64,000 nucleotides of DNA from Tomocerus qinae (taxonomy: Eukaryota > Arthropoda > Collembola > Entomobryomorpha > Tomoceridae): NCBI GenBank assembly GCA_020055645.1, contig CM034546.1:19592001-19656000 (forward strand), written 5' to 3'. This document shows, in pieces, positions 42,536 through 62,700 of this stretch (the stretch's first letter is position 1; the number at the start of each line of letters is the position of its first letter). The notes under the pieces are model-generated. The model saw nothing but the letters and a program-made list of their open reading frames with translations, did no database searches and was not told the origin of the DNA. The translations under genes and the position numbers were made by a program.

Positions 42536-45500
42536 ATGCTTGAATAAACATATTTTAATATGCTTCTGAAAATATCTCAGTCGTCCATGATTTTAGTTAA
42601 GCTATAAATTACACATTAAAAAATAAAGTTTTTTAATAGTAAATAATAAAACCTAAGATAAGTAAACATACATAGCACGACCTACCATATGCACTTGGAT
42701 GGAAGAAAAGAATAAACAGAATTTCTAATTACTAAAGCTCCACTATAAAATGTCTTTTAGCAACCTCCTATATTGGAAGGTATGGGCCCCAGAAATAAGC
42801 TTGATATAAAATCTGTTGTGTAGCTTCTCTAAATTTTCTTTTATTAGTATTAAGTATATAAAAACTTGTATGGATATCTCCGTGAAAAACACAAACAATA
42901 AGCCAGATCTCAATTAAATGTATATATTTTGAATTGATAATACATTCTAAATCATAGGAATAATAAGGAAGTACACCTAAAACACTTAAAATAGTGTTTA
43001 TTAACAGAGTAAATTAATTAGGAGGAATCATCACGCTAATTCAATTTTTTCCTGTTCAGGAGGAACCTCTGCTTGCTTCTTGTGGGTACGCATGTGAACA
43101 TGCAAATAATTCCAGATTGGAAATCTTTTATGACAAACTTTGCATTTTCTTTTGCAAAGGCTTTTTTCCATCTGAATGACAAATTTGTTCATGCCGTTTC
43201 AATTCGTTACTGTCTGAAAATTTCTTGCTACATTTTTTGCAAGGAAAAGGTCTCTCATTCCTGTGGATCTTTCGGATGTGATTTTTGAGCTGTTTAACTG
43301 TTTTGAATGATTTTCCACATTCTTCGCATAATTCGTGTTTCTCTTCTTTATGAATCAGTAAATGAGCTTTCAAGAGGCTCTGGAAATCGAAACCTCGATT
43401 GCAAACTGGGCAAAAATATTTATGCTGTCCTAAATGCATACTTCTAACATGAGTTTTTAAATTCCATGGAGTTTCAAATATTTTCTCACAATATTCACAC
43501 TTAAAGGGTTCAAGGCCCAGCTGTTCGTAATGTTTACCTCGCTGATGAGACTTTAGCTGTTTGATATTTCTGAAGGTTTTCCCACAAAAGTCACAAACAT
43601 AGGGTCTCAGTTTAAGATGTGTATTGATATGGTCTTGCATGTAACATTTTGTAGTTTCAAACGGGCAGTGAGGACATGGATAGACCTTCTTATATATATT
43701 ACTGTAATACTTTACTTTAAATACTCTGGGATGCTCTTTTTCATAGTGAGATTTCAAATCTTGCCGAAAGGGGAAACTTTCATTGCATTCAGTGCAAGTC
43801 TTATCGTCGGTTGTTTCAAATATTTTAAGTTGACTATCAGGGTGTTTTCTTTTACAGTGCTTTTTCAAAGTTTTCAAGCAAACATACTTGATTCCACATA
43901 TTTCACAAGCGACAGTGTCTTTGGTCGATTGGTTACGTGGAAAAATTTTGTCGCATTCTTCCCGGTGATACGTTTTGCAATGCGTCCGCAGACTATTTTG
44001 CGATTTAAAAATACTCTTAACACATATTGGACATGTAAGTTTTTCAGCTTCGTTGTGATATTTTTCTATGTGTATTTTCATATGATATTCATTAACAATT
44101 TTCGCACTGCATTTGTTGCAAGACAGTGGTAGTACGCCATGAACATTTAAGTAATGTTCTGTGCGATTGTAGACATTTGCATAGGACTTTGGACAACTTT
44201 CACATATTAATCTTTTGTCAGTTAAATTGTAACCTTCAGTTGTGTTCAAGTTTGACGAAGAAACTTCATTAGGAATCGAGCGTAACCCTAATTCAGAAAA
44301 TAAATTATAAATAAATTCAGATTAGAACCTAAAACATTTATATAAATGGTCAAAACAGAATGTAGAAACATAAGTAGTGTAATTTTTCTTACTTTGATAT
44401 TTAAGTGAAGGTGTTTCTGGTTGAGACTCAATCTGTCGATTCTTGACTTGTAAAAAGATCGTTTTCAGCAGACGGATTTGGGTTATTGTGTTTGCTAATT
44501 TGGGTCGCCAGGTTAGTCTTGCTTGAAATTTCGCCAAACATTTCCTCGTAATCTTCACGATGATAATTTCTACAGTGTGCCTTCATGATTTTTTCACTTA
44601 CAAATAGTTTTCCACACTTTTTACAAGGTACGGTTTTTTTCGGAGGAAAAATATCTTCGAATTCCTCCGGATGATCGTTTCTGCAGTGTACCCGTAAAGT
44701 TTTTTTATGCGCAAAAATTTTGCCAGGGCATATTGGGCATAAAACCTTACGAGAGTTGTTGTCGTGATGTGCTTCATTGGATTTCCATAATTTATTTTTA
44801 TTGCATTTTCTGGGGGATTTTTGCCGCTCTTCAGGCAAGTTATCTGAACAAATATTGTTTTTCTCAGAAAAATCGGGATCGTCAAAATCTTTATCTACTA
44901 AAACAACAAATACCTTTTATAATTTTTCTTCTAAAATTACTAAAAACAGAGTATATTTAATTAAGTGCAATCTTTTTGTGTTAAAATTGTGTTTAGGTAC
45001 AAGAATAATGAAAAAAATAAATTAATTGTTTTACCTGTACTCGAGTTATTTCCACTGTTATTATTAAGTGTGAAGGGTAGATTTGCATCTGATTCCAGTA
45101 AAGAAAAGCTATTTTCTGGAATTTCTCCATTTTTGTCTGTCTGAATATCTACATTTTTAACCTCCGATTCAATTGATAGATCAACATTTTTGTTCGGCTT
45201 ATCCAAAATAGTTAGGTTTTTGTTGTGTTTTTTCAAGTGCATTTGAAGGTAATCCTCTTTATATGCTTTGAAGGGACAATGAGAACACGATAATAATCTT
45301 TTCTTTCTCTGATCGTAGTAACGTAACTTAAAGTCTTTCGGGTGTTCTTTTTGATAATGTTCCTTCAAACGTATTTTGTTTGCGAACTTAGCATCGCATT
45401 TATCACAAGTGTCGCTACGTATGTTTTTAAACATTTCAGAATAGCATTCAGCATGATATTTTTTGCAATGAAGTCGTAAACTTCCAAGGTGAGCAAATAT

Positions 45501-46800
45501 TTTTCCACATTTTTTGCAATCTAAGGAGTTTTCCAAAGTAGCAATGTTACGTATTTTATTTTTTCGAGGAAACATGTCGAAGTATTCTTCCTTATGCTTT
45601 CTTCTGCAATGGTGGCGCAAAGTTATTTCATTGAGGAAAGTTTTCATTGGGCATTTCGGACAGGAGACGGTGTGAGTTCTTTTATGGAATATTTCATTAT
45701 GCTTCTTCAATTCGTTATCGTTTAACAATTTTTTACCACATTTTTGGCAAGAAATTGGCAACTCTCCGTGGGCAGTGATAAAATGTTCTTTCAATGAATG
45801 AATCCTTTTGTATGTGCGCATACATTTTTCGCATTTGAAATTTCCTTTTCCTTTAAAATCGGCCACATATTCCGTTTCTTCGGGATCTTCAGAATTTGAA
45901 ACATTTTCTTCTCCAGAAGAGGCCAAACTTTTGTCCGCATTAACTGATGACAGAAAAGGCATGAAATTAATTAGGGAGATTGAATTATGACAATTTTAAG
46001 CAAAAATCGATTAAAAGAAATAAATTTACCGTAATTTTTACTTTTTACACATTTTTTTTATGCGACTAGAAAATCTTCGATTGTAAAGCTGTGATTCAAA
46101 GATTTTTGTATCTAAATCCATGAGTGGGTCCGTTTCGTCTTCTTCAGAAGTTGAATCCTCTTGAAAAAATAATGAACATTCATATTCATTGCCAAGTACT
46201 TCTTCATTTTCAACCTTAACTTCCCTATCTGATAGGGAATTTTCCAAGTTAGCGTCACCTGTCCAAAAGTACAAAACGATCAATATTTCTCAGTCGTAAT
46301 TTATAACAACTAATAAAAGAAATCAAAACCGCCTTACCTTTGTAATCATAGCTTTTCGTAAAACAATCTCGAATTATTTCTGTGGCTCCCCGTCTAGAAG
46401 AATTTTTCTCTATTTCTTCAAGTATCTGTTGATTATTTTCAGAAGACTGAACAGCTGTTTTCAATTCTTCTTGTAACGCACCAAATTGTTTTTTAAGCAG
46501 TGTAATCTGATCAAATACGCATTTAGCTCTCTTTACCAAAAACGAGCAGGAATTGCACCAATCAACCCATTCACTAGGATTTCCATATTCTTCCAAAAGC
46601 TGTAGACATATATCTTGAGGTGTTTCAAAAAATTCCCGCAGTAAAAATATGACAGTAAGTTGTTGATTTAAAACTGTATCTTTCCCGAAATTGCTGAATT
46701 CTAAATAAAATGTAAACCATATTAAATGTCAAATCTAAAAGAATAACATTATATCATTGACTAACTACATTTTCATGTTTTAAGGTTATTTTTATATTAC
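42310..46800. repeat. Segmental duplication, copy A (partner 59690-63801)
   Basis: From inside the last exon of receptor 2C through the zinc-finger gene to its intron 1, the sequence matches 59690-63801 at high identity. Copy B lacks about 42402-42826. The right edge in B coincides with a transposon terminus at 63802. Confidence 0.9.
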
Positions 46801-52553: not shown

Positions 52554-55500
52554 ATGGCTGAAGACATTATTAATAACTTTGTTTTTCTTGTAAAAAACTT
52601 AACAAGTATAAATTTGGTGTTAATTCATTGTGTCGAACACAAGATCATCACAATTGATGATAAGGATAGGATTGTAAGCAAAATTTGTTATTTATACATT
52701 AATTAATTAATTAACTGCAGTTTATCTTACAAACTATTAATTATGCAATTTTATTGTAACTATAGATGGCGGGTGAAACATCATTAGATAAAAATGATCG
52801 ATTTTTTCAAAATATACTGAAGAAAAACTGGAAAGACATTAAAATGAAAATCGTTAAAATTTTACGAGAGACGTCAAATGAACATTGTGCTGACAAAATA
52901 GAAGGCAAGGAAACTCATCCTAATATGCAAACGTTTTTGCAAGTGCAGTCAGTTGATTCAAGTCATCAGATGTCGAATTCCGAAGAACGTAAAACTTTTA
53001 AAGTTCTTGACTCTCAATGGTGGCCAGAGAAAAAGAAACTTCCAAAGGCGTTTCTAGAAAGGAAACAAGACGACAAAAAATTGATAGTTATTTTAAAAGA
53101 GTATTTAACGAACAGTAAAAACAAAACGACTGTAATCAACCAAGGAGCCGCCGTTTCCGGGATGGGAGGCGTTGGAAAAACGACTATTGCAAAGTGGTTT
53201 GCTTTGAACAGTCGGGATTTTTACGACCATACTATTTGGATAGACTGTGGCGAGGAAAATTTATTGACTTCATTTATCGATTTGGCTGAAGAATTAAAAA
53301 TTGATTCTACTCTTCGACTCAATACTTTATCGAAAAAATGTTTTTCTAAATTGGAGAAAGCCAAATGTCTTTTTATTTTCGACAACGCGGAATGTTATCT
53401 AGGGAACCAGGGAATACGAGAAGTTCTTCCAAACCATGAAAACTTCCACACCATAATCACATCAAGGACTAAAGAGTGGGGAAATGAGTCAGGAGACGGA
53501 GAAATTCCACAGATGCACCTCGATGCATTTGCTACTAAAGATAGCGTCGAATTCTTGACAAAGAACTTGAATGATAAACGTTCTACAAAATCTCAGTTGG
53601 AAACATTGAGTAAAAAGCTTGGAAATCTTCCGTTGGCTTTGCAAATCGCAGTTGCGACAATAAACAAGCGGAATCTATCTATAAGCGAGTACATAGAAAG
53701 GATTAAAACAACTGATCAGATCATCAATGTAAACTTTGATGACTATGAAAAGACGATCAATAAAACAATGAAAATATCTCTGGATATCATCAAAAATCTT
53801 GAAGAGGATCCCAAGCAAACAGCCCACAAAATTCTGCTAATTTTAGGTTACATTAAACCTGATTTTGTTAACATCAAATTAATTGAATTGGTCGAAGGAT
53901 TAACACCAATTGAAACAAGGGTAGCAATTGAATTGCTTGAGAAATACTCTTTGGTGACAATACATTTAAATCAGCGTACTAAAAAAACAGAATCATGTAG
54001 CATTCATCGACTGCTGCAGCAAGTAATTCGCCACAATAACAAAGACAATGAACAAGTCACCTTAAAAAAGATTTTAAGCGTTGAAGGATTTTTAGGCTAC
54101 AAATTACTTCCCTATTTGCATGCTGATAAGGAAATACAAAATCTGTTCCCCAAAGTAAAAGCCCAGTTGATTGATTACAAGAATTTGGAAACAGTTCTGC
54201 AAAAAAGAGAATTCAAGGAGGCACTTGAAATATCCCGAATGATTAAAAACACCTTGAACACTCCGATGGCTGATTACAACTACGCAGTGTGTTTAGAAAA
54301 GATGGACGAATTGACTGAAGCTCAATCTGTACTACAGGCGATTCTCAATCATTTTCTAAAAGAGGAGAATAAGTCAAACAAAATAGAATATTTTTCGTTT
54401 GCTCAACAACTCAAAGTGTTACAAGATAGAATTGATGATAACGTTAACGAAGATGGACTGTGGGATTTAAAAATAAAAATCGAACCTGATTTAGTTAAAG
54501 GTTTGTTGTTCCTGGTTTATAGCAGGCTTGGATTGAATGATGCAGCCCATGTCATTATAAACGAAGATCAGCAGCTAATAACCTGCTATATTTCTCAGTC
54601 CTTGGATTATGTGATTAAATACTTGAAAAGTTCTTCAAGTTGCAACTACAAATTGCAATGTGAAAACAAATTCATTTTCCTAAAACTTGGAAACAATTTT
54701 GGGAAGGAAATTGACCTCTACGATTGCAGTCTTGGTGAAGTTTTACCGAGTAATTTAGACTACTTAAATTATGACTATGCCAACTTTCTGTTTCGGGAAC
54801 CTTTTGAAATCGGTAACCTAAAGAGTCTTTCATATAAGTGCAATACTTCAAATCCATTAGGTATTACAGGCACATTCTTTGGCTTTTGTAACGACATTAT
54901 TTTAGTGAACTGTGTGGTGAATCTCACAGAAGGACCCAGATCAACTCCAATTGAAATTAATTTAGAAAAAATTAAGTTTATGCGAGGCGAAGAAGAAGTT
55001 AAAAACTGTTGTCTTAACGATTGGATTGATTTCCAGAAAACAAAGATTTTGAATCTCGAAGGCAGCAATATGTCCATGAAATTGGACAAGTCACTCAGCA
55101 TAAACAAAATCTTCCTTGATGGATTTAACGGTTTGGATTGGAATGATTTCAACTGCACAGTCAAGGAGATGTCTATTTATAATACAATTGTCCCAATAGT
55201 TGACCAAAATATTGAATTGAGGGTAGATTTTCTTTGCCTGTCCAAATGCTCTGTTCACCTGAAGTCACTTTTCTTTCTAACACAGAGTGTAAAAGACATT
55301 GTGCTTGAAAAAGCCACAATTGAAATTGATGAGGTTAACAATGAAAAGAAATTCAGAATCTGCGCAGCAGAAGTGGAATTGCAATATGTTAAAATTACTC
55401 AGGACCCTGTTGAAGTGACGGAAATCCTCCTCAACGACATTCTGGATTTGACACAAATAAAAAGTTTGCTATTGTGGGATAAGAAAGGTACAAAGATGAC

Positions 55501-56932
55501 TTTCGACATGAGCCAACAGTTTTCCCTTGATGAATTAAACTTGAAAAGAATCAATTTAATAAATTTTGATAAATCAACCAGTAGCGTCAAAGATCTTACT
55601 TTATGGAATTATGACGTTTTTGATGTATCGAGTACTCAGTTTAGAGTAACGGAGTCTTTGAATGTTAACAATTCTCACCTTAATGTAACCTCCCTTGACA
55701 ATCTTTTAAAAGCTACAAACAAAGTGACCCTTGACGAAACGTCAATTCATTTGGATTGTGATCTCGGCAAAAATAATGCTGCTGCCAAATCCCATTATCT
55801 TAACGGCCAAATAAAAGAAGTCGAAGTGGAAAATATCACTTTCTTTAAAGATGGGAAAGAAATTGAGAAATTCCTAGTTAACGATTTCATCAACATCTCT
55901 GACTTGAATAGTTTGGTTTTAGTTTCAAAGAATGGGGAAAGTGGTCGCATGTTATTGGATATGAAAAACATTTCACTGTCACTTGACACTCTTGAATTGC
56001 ACAATATCGAACTCCTCAATTGGGATAAAGGTGAGGGACACGTTAATGAAATGATTTTATTTGGCATTCCGTTTTTGAATAAGAACAATATACAAATTAA
56101 TTACTTGTCCATTGAAGATGCTTCCATTAAACTTTCTTGCCTACCAAAAACGATCCAACGACTTGATTTGAATGAGGGTAGCGTTGTAATTTGCAATGCC
56201 CAAATCCCGAATAGTTTGAATGGTCTTTGTTTCTACTGCAATCCTTCTAACTTGAAATATTTCTCTGGCTGTGCTAACTTGACCAAACTTTTCCTCGGAT
56301 ATTCACATGATTACGAATTACGCGAGAGTTCAGATGAAGACAGCAGCAGCAGTGGTGGTGACTTAAGTTCATTTGATGACGAAAGTTTAAATGAAGACGA
56401 AATTTCCAATGAAGAGAAAAACTCAGATGAAGAAGAAATTTTGGATGAAGAGGAAAACTCAGATGATGAATACGAGGATGTCAACGAAAACAATTTACTT
56501 TTAAATTTTAAGTGGCTTCCAAAATCTATCAAAGCAATAAAATTAAATTGGAAGCACAAATCTTCCCCTCCTCTCTCTCCACTGACTCTCTCACACATAT
56601 ACAACTGGCGACAGAAAGTGGAAACAGTAATAATTCGAAACTTTCTTTTGTCGCAGGTTAAAGCTGCCCTAGATGTACTACAACCGTCAAATGTAATATT
56701 TGCAGGATATCCTATAAGATTAACAAACACCGAACTAGATATAGTTACTGCGTTAATCAAGTCGAATAAATCGTTAGCTATTGGTAAGTTTGTATGGGAA
56801 AGTGATGAGCAATTTAAAAATTGTCCACTTGCCAAATTCGTTGACGAAAAAGGAGAGTATTACGTCATTGAAAATCAAAGGGGAATTGTGGTGAAGGAAA
56901 TAGAATTCACAGATATGACACACCTATTCTAA
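52554..56932 (+). CDS. CARD-NB-ARC (Apaf-1/NLR-like) protein with novel C-terminal repeats
   Basis: Exon 1 52554-52673 and exon 2 52766-56932 join in phase (1428 residues) across a 92-bp GT-AG intron. Residues 1-87 look like a CARD: MAEDIINNFVFLVKN, LIHCVEHKIITIDDKDRI, then FFQNILKKNWKDIKMKIVKI and ETSNEHCADKIE. NB-ARC features: P-loop GMGGVGKTT (about 171), Walker B CLFIFDNAE (about 240), sensor ITSRTKEW (about 272), GNLPLALQ (about 326) and a winged-helix end CSIHRLLQQVIR (about 452), where STAND proteins have MHD. A helical stretch with a TPR-like unit follows (AVCLEKMDELTEAQSVLQAI). Residues about 690-1200 are Leu/Asn/Asp-rich with three tandem repeats of about 140 residues (767-902, 903-1053, 1054-1191), then an acidic Ser/Glu/Asp linker (about 1227-1285). 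There are no WD40 repeats. The family is a cytosolic signal-dependent oligomerising ATPase; an immune or apoptotic role is inferred. It appears intact. Confidence 0.85.
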
Positions 56933-59780: not shown

Positions 59781-62700
59781 GTTAGCTTCTCTAAATTTTC
59801 TATTATTAGTATTTAAAAACTTGCATGGATATCTCCGTGATAAACACAAACAATAAGCCAGATCTCAATTACATGTATATATTTTGAATTGATAATACAT
59901 TCTACATCATAGGAATAATAAGGAAGTACACCTAAAACACTTAAAATAGTGTTTATTAACAGAGTATATTAATTAGGAGGAATCATCACGCTAATTCAAT
60001 TTTTTCCTGTTCAGGAGGAACCTCTGCTTGTTTCTTGTGGGTACGCATGTGAACATGCAAATAATTCCAGATTGGAAATCTTTTATGACAAACTTTGCAT
60101 TTTCTTTTGCAAAGGCTTTTTTCCATCTGAATGACAAATTTGTTCATGCCGTTTCAATTCGTTACTGTATGAAAATTTCTTGCTACATTTTTTGCAAGGA
60201 AAAGGTCTCTCATTCCTGTGGATCGATCGGATGTGATTTTTGAGCTTATAAACTGTTTTGAAAGATTTTCCACATTCTTCGCATAATTCCGATTTCTCTT
60301 CTTTATGAATCAGTAGATGAATTTTCAGGGCTCCCTGGAAATCGAAGCCTCGATTGCAAATTTCGCAAAAATATCTGTGCTGTCCTAAATGCATATTTCT
60401 AACATGAGATTTTAAATACGAAGGAGTTTCAAACATTTTCCCACAATATTCACATTTAAAGGGTTCAAGGCCCAGCTGTTCGTAATGTTTACCTCGCTGA
60501 TGAGACTTTAGCTTTTTGATATTTGTGAAGGTTTTCCCACAAAAGTCACAAACATAGGGTCTCAGTTTAAGATGTGTATTGATATGGTCTTGCATGTAAT
60601 ATTTTGTAGTTTCAAACGGGCAGTGAGGACATGGATAGAGCTTCTTAAATTTATCACTGTAATACTTTACTTTAAATACTCTGGGATGCTCTTTTTCATA
60701 GTGAGATTTCAAATCTTGCCGAAAGGGGAAACTTTCATTGCATTCAGTGCAAGTCTTATCGTCGGTTTTTTCAAATATTTTAAGTTGACTATCAGGGTGT
60801 TTTTTTTTACAGTGCGTTTTCAAAGTTTTCAAGCATACAAACTTAATTCCACATATTTCACAAGCGACAGTGTCTTTGGTCGATTGTTTATTTGGAACAA
60901 TTTTGTCGCATTCTTCCGGGTGATACGTTTTGCAATGCGCCCGCAGACTTTTTTGCGAACTAAAAATACTCTTAACACATATTGGACATGTAAGTTTTTC
61001 AGCTTCGTTGTGATATTTTTCTTTGTGTATTTTCATATGATATTCATTAACAATTTTCGCACTGCATTTATCGCAAGACAGCGGTAATTCCCCATGAACA
61101 TTTAAGTAATGTTCTGTGAGAGTTTGGACATTTGCATAGGAATTTGGACAACTTTCACATTTTAATCTTTGGTCAGTTAAATTGTAACTTTCAGTTGTGT
61201 TCAAGTTTGACGAAGAAACTTTATTAGGAATGGGGCGTAACCCTAATTTAGAAAATAAATTATAAATAAATTCAGATTAGAACATAAAAAATTCATACAA
61301 ATGGTCAAAACAGAATGTAGAAACATAATTAGTGTCATTTTTCTTACTTTGATATTTAAGTGAAGGTGTTTCTGGTTGAGACTCAGGAAGCGGTACTAAA
61401 TCTGTCGATTCTTGACTTGTGAAAAGATCGTTTTCATCAGACGGATTTGGGTTATTGTGTTTGCTAATATGGGTCGCCAGGTTAGTCTTACTTGAAATTT
61501 CGCCAAACATTTCCTCGTAATCTTCACGATGATAATTTCTACAGTGTGCCTTCATGGTTATTTCACTTACAAATAGTTTTCCACACTTTTTACAAGGAAC
61601 GGTGTTCTTCAAAGTAGAATAACGCGATTTCGTTTTTTTCGGAGGAAAAATATCTTCGAATTCCTCCGGATGATCGTTTCGGCAGTGTTTTCGTAAATTT
61701 TTTTTATGCGCAAAAATTTTGCCAGGGCATATAGGGCATGGAACATTACGAGAGTTGTTGTGATGTGCTTCATTGGGTTTCCATAATTTATTTTTATTGC
61801 ATTGCCTGGGGGATTTTTGCCGCTCCTCAGGCAAGTTGTCTGAACAAATATTGTTTTTCTCAGAAAAATCGGAGTCGTCAAAATCTTTATCTACTAAAAC
61901 AAGAAATACCTTTTATAATTTTTCTTCTAAAATTATTAAAAACAGAGTATACTTAATTAAGTGCAATATTTTTGTGTTAAAATTGTGTTAAGGTACAAGA
62001 ATAATGAAAAAAATTAATTAATTGTTTTACCTGTACCCGAGTTATTTCCGCTGTTAGGTGTGAAGGGTAGATTTGCATCTGATTCCAGTAAAGAAAAGCT
62101 ATTTTCTGAAACTTCTCTATTTTTTTCTGTCTCTATATCTACATTTTCAACCTCCGATTTAATCGATAGATCAACATTTTTGTTCTGCTGATCCAAAATA
62201 GTTAGGCCTTTGTTGTGTTTTTTCAGGTGCATTTGAAGGTAATCCGCTTTATATGCTTTGAAGGGACAATGAGAACACGATAATAATCTTTTCTTTCTCT
62301 GCTCGTAGTAACGTAATTTAAAGTCTTTCGGGTGTTCTTTTTGATAATGTTCCTTTAAACGTATTATGTTTGCGAACTTAGCATCGCATTTGTCACAAGT
62401 GTCGCTACGTATGTTTTTAAACATTTCAGAATAGCATTCAGCATGATATTTTCTGCAATGAAGTCGTAAACTTCCAAGGTGAGCAAATATTTTTCCACAT
62501 TTTTTGCAATCTAAGGAGTTTTCCAAAGTAGCAATGTTACGTATTTTATTTTTTCGAGGAAACATGTCGAAGAATTCTTCCTTATGCTTTCTTCTGCAAT
62601 GGTGGCGCAAATTTATTTCATTGAGGAAAGTCTTCATTGGGCATTTCGGACAGGAGACGGTGTGAGTTCTTTTATGTAATATTTCATTATGCTTCTTCAG

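Follow-up and report, generated by a model that had tools for sequence, protein, structure and literature searches.

What does a gene encode when its CARD and NB-ARC domains are followed by a long C-terminal half that is not WD40? This question is raised by a gene at 52554-56932 on the forward strand of a 64,000-nucleotide stretch of contig CM034546.1 (positions 19,592,001 to 19,656,000), the whole of which is called the window here. A sequence-only reading of the window had proposed that the gene may encode an arthropod NLR-like sensor that pairs the engine of Apaf-1 with a different sensing end. Following analysis of the gene and its relatives in the same genome, we consider it probable that the predicted protein is an NLR-like cytosolic receptor, which would consist of an intron-split CARD, an NB-ARC domain with winged helix, a linker resembling TPR and a divergent end of the leucine-rich repeat (LRR) type that is arranged in three super-repeats of about 150 residues and acts as the sensor. 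The order of CARD and NB-ARC within the predicted protein is firmly held, and the layout resembles plant disease-resistance proteins more closely than the usual animal sensors. The proposal of an NLR-like sensor therefore stood in one part, as the sensing end is not WD40 and most plausibly consists of divergent leucine-rich-type repeats that follow a TPR-like hairpin, and fell in the other, as the switch does not appear to be the Apaf-1 engine.

A CARD split by an intron is joined to an NB-ARC switch

Joining the exons at 52554-52673 and 52766-56932 yields a predicted protein of 1429 codons, including the stop. The N-terminal part of the gene contains the following features, all on the forward strand:

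52554..52673 (+): exon 1, 40 codons, encoding the first CARD half and ending at a GTAAGC donor (CARD profile scores; 12 of 25 paralogous loci with a comparable exon before GTAAG)
52674..52765 (+): phase 0 intron of 92 nucleotides, GTAAGC...TATAG (exon joining; 67-174 nucleotides long in nine paralogues)
52766..56932 (+): exon 2, a single open frame of 1388 codons up to the stop (open-frame reading)
52766..52906 (+): second CARD half, protein residues 41-87 (Pfam CARD; profile of paralogue N-termini)
53147..53785 (+): NB-ARC domain, with the P-loop GMGGVGKTT at 53159-53185 (Pfam match; paralogue alignment)
53786..54055 (+): remaining ARC/winged-helix region, with SIHRLLQQVIR (53999-54031) at the MHD position (alignment; weak DUF7779 match; borders estimated)

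The first 87 residues had been described as CARD-like only when the two exons are joined, and profile scores bear this out. The joined N-terminus matched Pfam CARD (PF00619) at 31.2 bits against a cut-off of 23.9, with residues 12-87 covering profile positions 11-84 of 85. Exon 1 by itself scored 15.2 bits, which is below the cut-off, and exon 2 by itself gave no CARD row up to E 10 in searches whose HMMER filters lose most matches above about 0.1. The best single match of the N-terminus in the PDB was MDA5 (IFIH1), at E 0.001. A CARD match at E <= 0.1 was also found in all 10 of the joined paralogous N-termini (best 7.4e-15), and a profile built from these sequences listed 23 PDB sequences, among which were the CARDs of CARD8, MDA5, ASC, CED-3, Apaf-1, RAIDD, NLRP1 and BCL10.

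The predicted junction recurs among paralogues. An exon 1-like stretch was present in 12 of 25 paralogous loci, and GTAAG followed directly after each. All nine of the loci tested have an in-phase acceptor that leads into the NB-ARC frame; an in-phase AG is also present in 73% of random stretches, which makes the acceptor count weak when taken alone, so that the case for the junction is carried by the alignable residues behind the acceptor. Furthermore, exon 2 does not begin with methionine in the paralogues L016, L033 and L012, which therefore cannot start where exon 2 of the window gene could. Taken together, the sequence comparisons confirm the predicted combination of an intron-split CARD and an NB-ARC domain without WD40 in the window.

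The same arrangement is seen across the genome. CARD matches numbered 141, of which 16 were above the cut-off, and most of them span either profile positions of about 2-40 or about 40-83, which is the split of the window gene. A same-strand NB-ARC match lies within 8 kb downstream of 49 of the 141, whereas the wrong order was found for 2 and an opposite-strand partner for none. When two NB-ARC searches of the genome, described below, are united into 156 places, 66 of the 141 CARD matches have one of them no more than 9 kb away, compared with 1.9% of random positions on C1, the contig that carries most of these places.

The claim that an NB-ARC domain follows the CARD also held, as the window protein matched Pfam NB-ARC (PF00931) at 42.9 bits (cut-off 23.5). 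NACHT reached 14.1 bits against a cut-off of 26.7. Among 11 aligned proteins, the columns of the P-loop, the Walker-B aspartate, the TSR and PLxL motifs and the winged-helix H-R-x-x-Q are invariant or nearly so, which implies, as far as motifs can tell, that the protein has a working nucleotide switch.

The C-terminal half is likely an LRR-type solenoid

As the earlier reading had stated, the C-terminal half is not WD40: Pfam searches returned no WD40 row for the window protein. The following features were delineated in this half:

54056..54685 (+): TPR-like helical linker (weak ANAPC3 match; family profile against PPR/alpha-solenoid structures; borders estimated)
54848..55285 (+): C-terminal repeat 1, delimited as approximately 150 residues (E 2.6e-11 against repeat 2 by hhalign)
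55283..55735 (+): C-terminal repeat 2 (hhalign with repeat 3, E 7e-11)
55733..56215 (+): C-terminal repeat 3, which runs into an LRR/FNIP-like stretch (hhalign with repeat 1, E 1.8e-7; profile of 14 paralogues)
56324..56494 (+): acidic insert of about 57 residues, rich in Asp, Glu and Ser, missing from four close paralogues (alignment)
56495..56929 (+): C-terminal tail, alignable among close paralogues (alignment; ratio of nonsynonymous to synonymous change, dN/dS, 0.504)

Hints of a TPR-like hairpin behind the winged helix come from the weak ANAPC3 match of the window protein, and some family members have weak TPR-type matches as well. Positions of about 476-532 of the family profile match PPR/alpha-solenoid structures in the PDB; no single stretch passes alone. 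Beyond this linker, profile-profile comparison detected three homologous repeats of about 150 residues, for which each E-value given above comes from one comparison between shallow profiles. When the C-terminal part was aligned with itself by BLAST, no internal repeat appeared at E <= 10.

Evidence for leucine-rich-type repeats emerges from the family. Profile searches matched CARD and NB-ARC in the window protein itself, whereas matches to LRR and FNIP, a repeat of the LRR clan, appeared only at the level of the family. We used a profile of 195 positions made from 14 paralogues and corresponding to 55796-56380 (repeat 3 onward) and its relatives. At E <= 10, this profile listed ten PDB structures, and eight of these are LRR proteins by name or by known fold: Crov588 (4.4e-5), KDM2B twice (0.011 and 0.016), LGR5 four times (0.12-0.13) and FBXL2 (6.4). 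Crov588 and KDM2B are taken here to contain LRR-type repeats. The two remaining structures, bicaudal C (0.5) and SGNH hydrolase (0.53), are not LRR proteins. Among the 14 members, FNIP matched seven at E <= 1 (best 5.1e-5) and LRR_4 matched two; the Jak1 domain model also matched two, with a best value of 8.1e-4. In one member, L029, FNIP exceeded the Pfam cut-off (22.1 versus 21.0). Across the genome, 18 FNIP matches were found at E <= 1, of which 17 are on C1, five lie within 8 kb downstream of a Pfam NB-ARC match and at least five share an open frame with a family NB-ARC, as judged by frame length and position.

Several results weigh against an LRR-type end. The C-terminal half of the window protein has no Pfam match above threshold and none to FNIP or LRR, and a profile of the five closest C-termini matched no PDB structure at E <= 10. 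For the 14-paralogue profile, just one structure falls below E 0.01, and the LRR matches are confined to positions 88-192 of 195, which is the end of repeat 3 and beyond. The FNIP matches across the genome are all weak (E 0.013-0.83), and most of them are outside any listed NB-ARC frame. Fourier analysis detected no simple hydrophobic periodicity. The pattern LxxLxLxxxxL occurs seven times in the C-terminal part, compared with a mean of 0.47 after shuffling (reached in 0 of 2000 shuffles); however, it occurs nine times in the reversed sequence, and an excess that is equally large in reverse indicates strand-rich repeats rather than LRRs. A simpler LRR pattern was not significant (10 versus 8.0 expected, reached in 551 of 2000 shuffles).

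The alternative that survives best is that this half is a beta-rich repeat domain other than LRR, so that the receptor would combine CARD and NB-ARC with a sensor of new fold. The lack of matches for the five closest paralogues, both above threshold in Pfam and in the PDB, and a signature that is not specific to direction are what this explanation would predict. However, it does not account for a 14-member profile that matches mostly LRR structures together with FNIP repeats, or for the FNIP matches that lie in the frame of a family NB-ARC, and we regard it as unlikely, although it is the rival to which we give most weight. An LRR-type solenoid is the likely identity of the C-terminal half, with its LRR nature held moderately, by profile resemblance, and at the level of the family. 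No relatives of the C-terminal part were confirmed in viral contigs or prokaryote genomes.

The gene belongs to a large family concentrated on one contig

The earlier reading had a single gene at hand, and its suggestion that paralogues be sought in springtail genomes was followed in the genome of the window itself. The NB-ARC region of the window gene returned at least 116 close relatives, all at E <= 3.4e-77 (116 of 325 candidates scored), of which 114 are on C1, one is on C5 and one is on C14. C1 holds 42% of the bases, and measured against this share the concentration of the family on it has a P of 2.5e-40. Pfam NB-ARC gave at least 126 matches across the genome, all above the cut-off (126 of 253 candidates scored), and the union of both searches amounts to the 156 places mentioned above, with 146 on C1. 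Because this union includes the Apaf-1 gene and the NB-ARC-TPR genes described below, we put the family size at a minimum of 116. A search with the C-terminal part alone yielded at least 88 matches at E <= 0.001, of which one is on C5 and the others are all on C1 (73 of 521 candidates scored). Paralogue sequences were examined for 26 of 126 regions, and the four closest full-length paralogues among them are approximately 50-52% identical in the main alignment. One diverged member, L023, has an N-terminus that resembles a DZIP3-like HEPN domain at residues 112-165 of the frame (24.5 bits, below the cut-off of 27).

We compared substitution within the group of five made up of the window gene and these four paralogues by the Nei-Gojobori method (ten pairs, dS 0.52-2.29). 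Mean dN/dS came to 0.145 in the NB-ARC, 0.254 in the TPR-like part and 0.32 in the portion of the CARD that exon 2 encodes; the C-terminal repeats, where the synonymous difference is similar to that of the NB-ARC, stood at 0.416 and the tail at 0.504. Values of 0.24 for the linker and 0.153 for the winged-helix part both include pairs with saturated dS counted as zero. The amino-acid sequence of the C-terminal half thus changes faster than that of the NB-ARC, with purifying selection acting overall, and the recurrence of exon 1 with GTAAG, together with the low ratio of the NB-ARC, is more than chance. Two members, L017 and L020, lie 14 kb apart and are 97.4% and 100% identical in DNA over some stretches, and the frame of L020 is shortened, which indicates that copies are still arising and decaying. 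A cluster of recent tandem copies is located at C1:10.42-10.57 Mb.

Residence of nearly the whole family on one contig and recent tandem copies such as L017 and L020 would also suit a family that serves self/non-self recognition or development, or a selfish system linked to a chromosome, in place of pathogen sensing. On the other side, the CARD, the intact switch motifs and the faster change at the sensor end are traits of NLRs, and no result points specifically to allorecognition or drive; this explanation is accordingly improbable in our estimate, and somewhat more so than that of a new fold.

The switch appears to belong with NB-ARC-TPR proteins rather than Apaf-1

The same genome retains a separate, multi-exon Apaf-1 gene, L011 (C1:106750364-106760264), which encodes CARD halves, an NB-ARC (70 bits in one exon) and WD40 repeats; in the PDB, its largest WD40 exon matches Apaf-1 chains best. 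The WD40 profile search of the genome scored 150 of 530 candidates. When applied to the exons of this gene, the family NB-ARC profile scored at most 1.4 bits, with one exon, which separates that of the P-loop from that of 170 residues, left out; in contrast, it scored 105, 90 and 74 bits on the local NB-ARC proteins L024, L025 and L036, respectively. TPR matches are present in L024 (C1:125.66 Mb) and L036 (C1:23.92 Mb). PDB searches are in line with these scores: bacterial AfsR was first among the matches listed for the window protein and for its NB-ARC, the family profile also listed the plant proteins Roq1, MLA13 and NRC, and chains of Apaf-1 and CED-4 were in none of the three lists. From these comparisons, we infer that the family switch belongs with the NB-ARC-TPR branch and not with Apaf-1, and the term "Apaf-1 engine" is not supported.

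The possibility that a duplicated Apaf-1 or Dark lost its WD40 repeats and still acts as a caspase apoptosome scaffold was weighed against these results. It draws on the order of CARD then NB-ARC, on the weak matches of the family CARD profile to Apaf-1 CARDs (E of approximately 0.001), on the CARD of L011, which by our own reading is also split by an intron, three codons downstream of the position in the family, and on the presence of a CARD-caspase in the genome. Retention of a complete Apaf-1, the near absence of a family profile score on those of its exons that were scored and a family of at least 116 members, where passages of one survey list one NB-ARC gene each for fly, worm and human (PMC2246300), make such an origin quite improbable. 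That the copies were spread by a mobile element, with most of them, including the window gene, being non-functional, is least probable of all: the copy number is high, 16 of 116 family frames are shorter than 600 codons and L020 is truncated, but only 2 of 116 matches have an in-frame stop, 79 of 116 frames have at least 900 codons, the NB-ARC has a dN/dS of 0.145 and every copy with a recognized exon 1 retains the first intron, contrary to what retrocopies would show.

How the receptor may work

By analogy with NLRs and Apaf-1, an NLR-like receptor of this layout would rest with its C-terminal half keeping the NB-ARC in an ADP-bound state. The variable C-terminal half might detect a ligand or an alteration of a guarded protein, and exchange for ATP could then permit a wheel-like oligomer, in which clustered CARDs would recruit a CARD protein and trigger cell death or another defence response. 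One candidate partner lies on contig C4 (17648602-17649970, or 17.6486-17.650 Mb), where a half-CARD (23.1 bits) is located 471 and 740 bases upstream of two same-strand caspase matches, a combination that probably represents a CARD-caspase.

Further findings count against the receptor reading. An exon 1 match was not found in 13 of 25 paralogous loci within the approximately 3.2 kb searched upstream, and 92 of the 141 CARD matches have no NB-ARC partner within 8 kb. The half-CARD of the C4 locus is just below the cut-off. In addition, dN/dS is below 1 in all regions, which gives no sign of diversifying selection.

Neighbouring genes and other families

Two C2H2 zinc-finger frames of equal length (397 codons) flank the gene on the reverse strand, at 43128-44321 and 60083-61276, and are perhaps paralogues of each other. 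The window contains a further zinc-finger frame at 44961-45995, also on the reverse strand. Elsewhere in the genome, a second expanded switch family comprises 29 NACHT matches above the cut-off, 24 of them on C1 and a dozen in frames of 1500-2200 codons; these places could be NACHT-type NLRs. Nine condensation-domain matches on C1, in frames of up to 2456 codons, mark peptide-synthetase-like genes, which are known in animal genomes from springtails; their presence is consistent with a springtail host without proving it.

Comparison with known systems

To our knowledge, the combination of NB-ARC and LRR is regarded as a plant design and that of NACHT and LRR as an animal design. We see an even chance that an animal, probably an arthropod, has its own plant-style NB-ARC-LRR repertoire, in which a CARD is joined to a switch from the NB-ARC-TPR lineage, the divergent LRR-type end changes fast, and well over 100 copies, nearly all on one chromosome, are independent of the Apaf-1 and NACHT genes. 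If so, a large animal family of CARD, NB-ARC and LRR-like parts would represent one more convergent assembly of this receptor logic, and a small invertebrate would allow convergence in NLR evolution to be tested. Should the host be an arthropod, its lineage would also gain an intracellular receptor repertoire, which, as far as we know, standard insect models lack. No such architecture was described for an arthropod among the titles and abstract openings listed from open-licence PMC papers.

Among known proteins, plant NB-ARC-LRR proteins such as Roq1, MLA13 and NRC share with the window family the central NB-ARC switch, large family size and, probably, C-terminal leucine-rich-type repeats. They differ at the N-terminus, which is a CARD in the window protein and not a coiled coil, TIR or RPW8 domain, and the window family has a TPR-like linker, divergent FNIP-like repeats, and His-Arg where plants have the His-Asp of the MHD motif. 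Animal NACHT-LRR NLRs likewise share a central nucleotide switch and, probably, an LRR-type sensor end with the window family; however, the switch of the window protein scores as NB-ARC and not NACHT (42.9 versus 14.1 bits, the latter with a cut-off of 26.7). Shrimp LvNLRC is one such NACHT-LRR protein, with an N-terminus that passages of its description give as of unknown function (PMC12370184).

Apaf-1, Dark and CED-4 have in common with the window protein a CARD that is followed by NB-ARC, whereas the window protein is without WD40, its NB-ARC is not of the Apaf-1 type by profile, and its gene has many copies. The local NB-ARC-TPR proteins L024 and L036 are closer in their switch, as the scores of 105 and 74 bits by the family profile indicate, and the family keeps a TPR-like linker, but these two proteins have clear TPR matches, no LRR-like half seen in their frames and no exon 1 match in the upstream DNA searched. 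Placozoans, amphioxus, sea urchin and sea anemone also have several copies of NB-ARC proteins with a CARD or other death fold. In Trichoplax sp. H2, passages of one study count 39 NB-ARC genes, whose repeats are WD40 or TPR in every case and never LRRs (PMC6321704); passages of another count 16 NB-ARC genes in amphioxus and describe several such genes there, in sea urchin and in sea anemone, some of them lacking WD40 or carrying TPR in its place (PMC2246300). These sets end in WD40 or TPR, whereas the window family is larger and has an LRR-like end.

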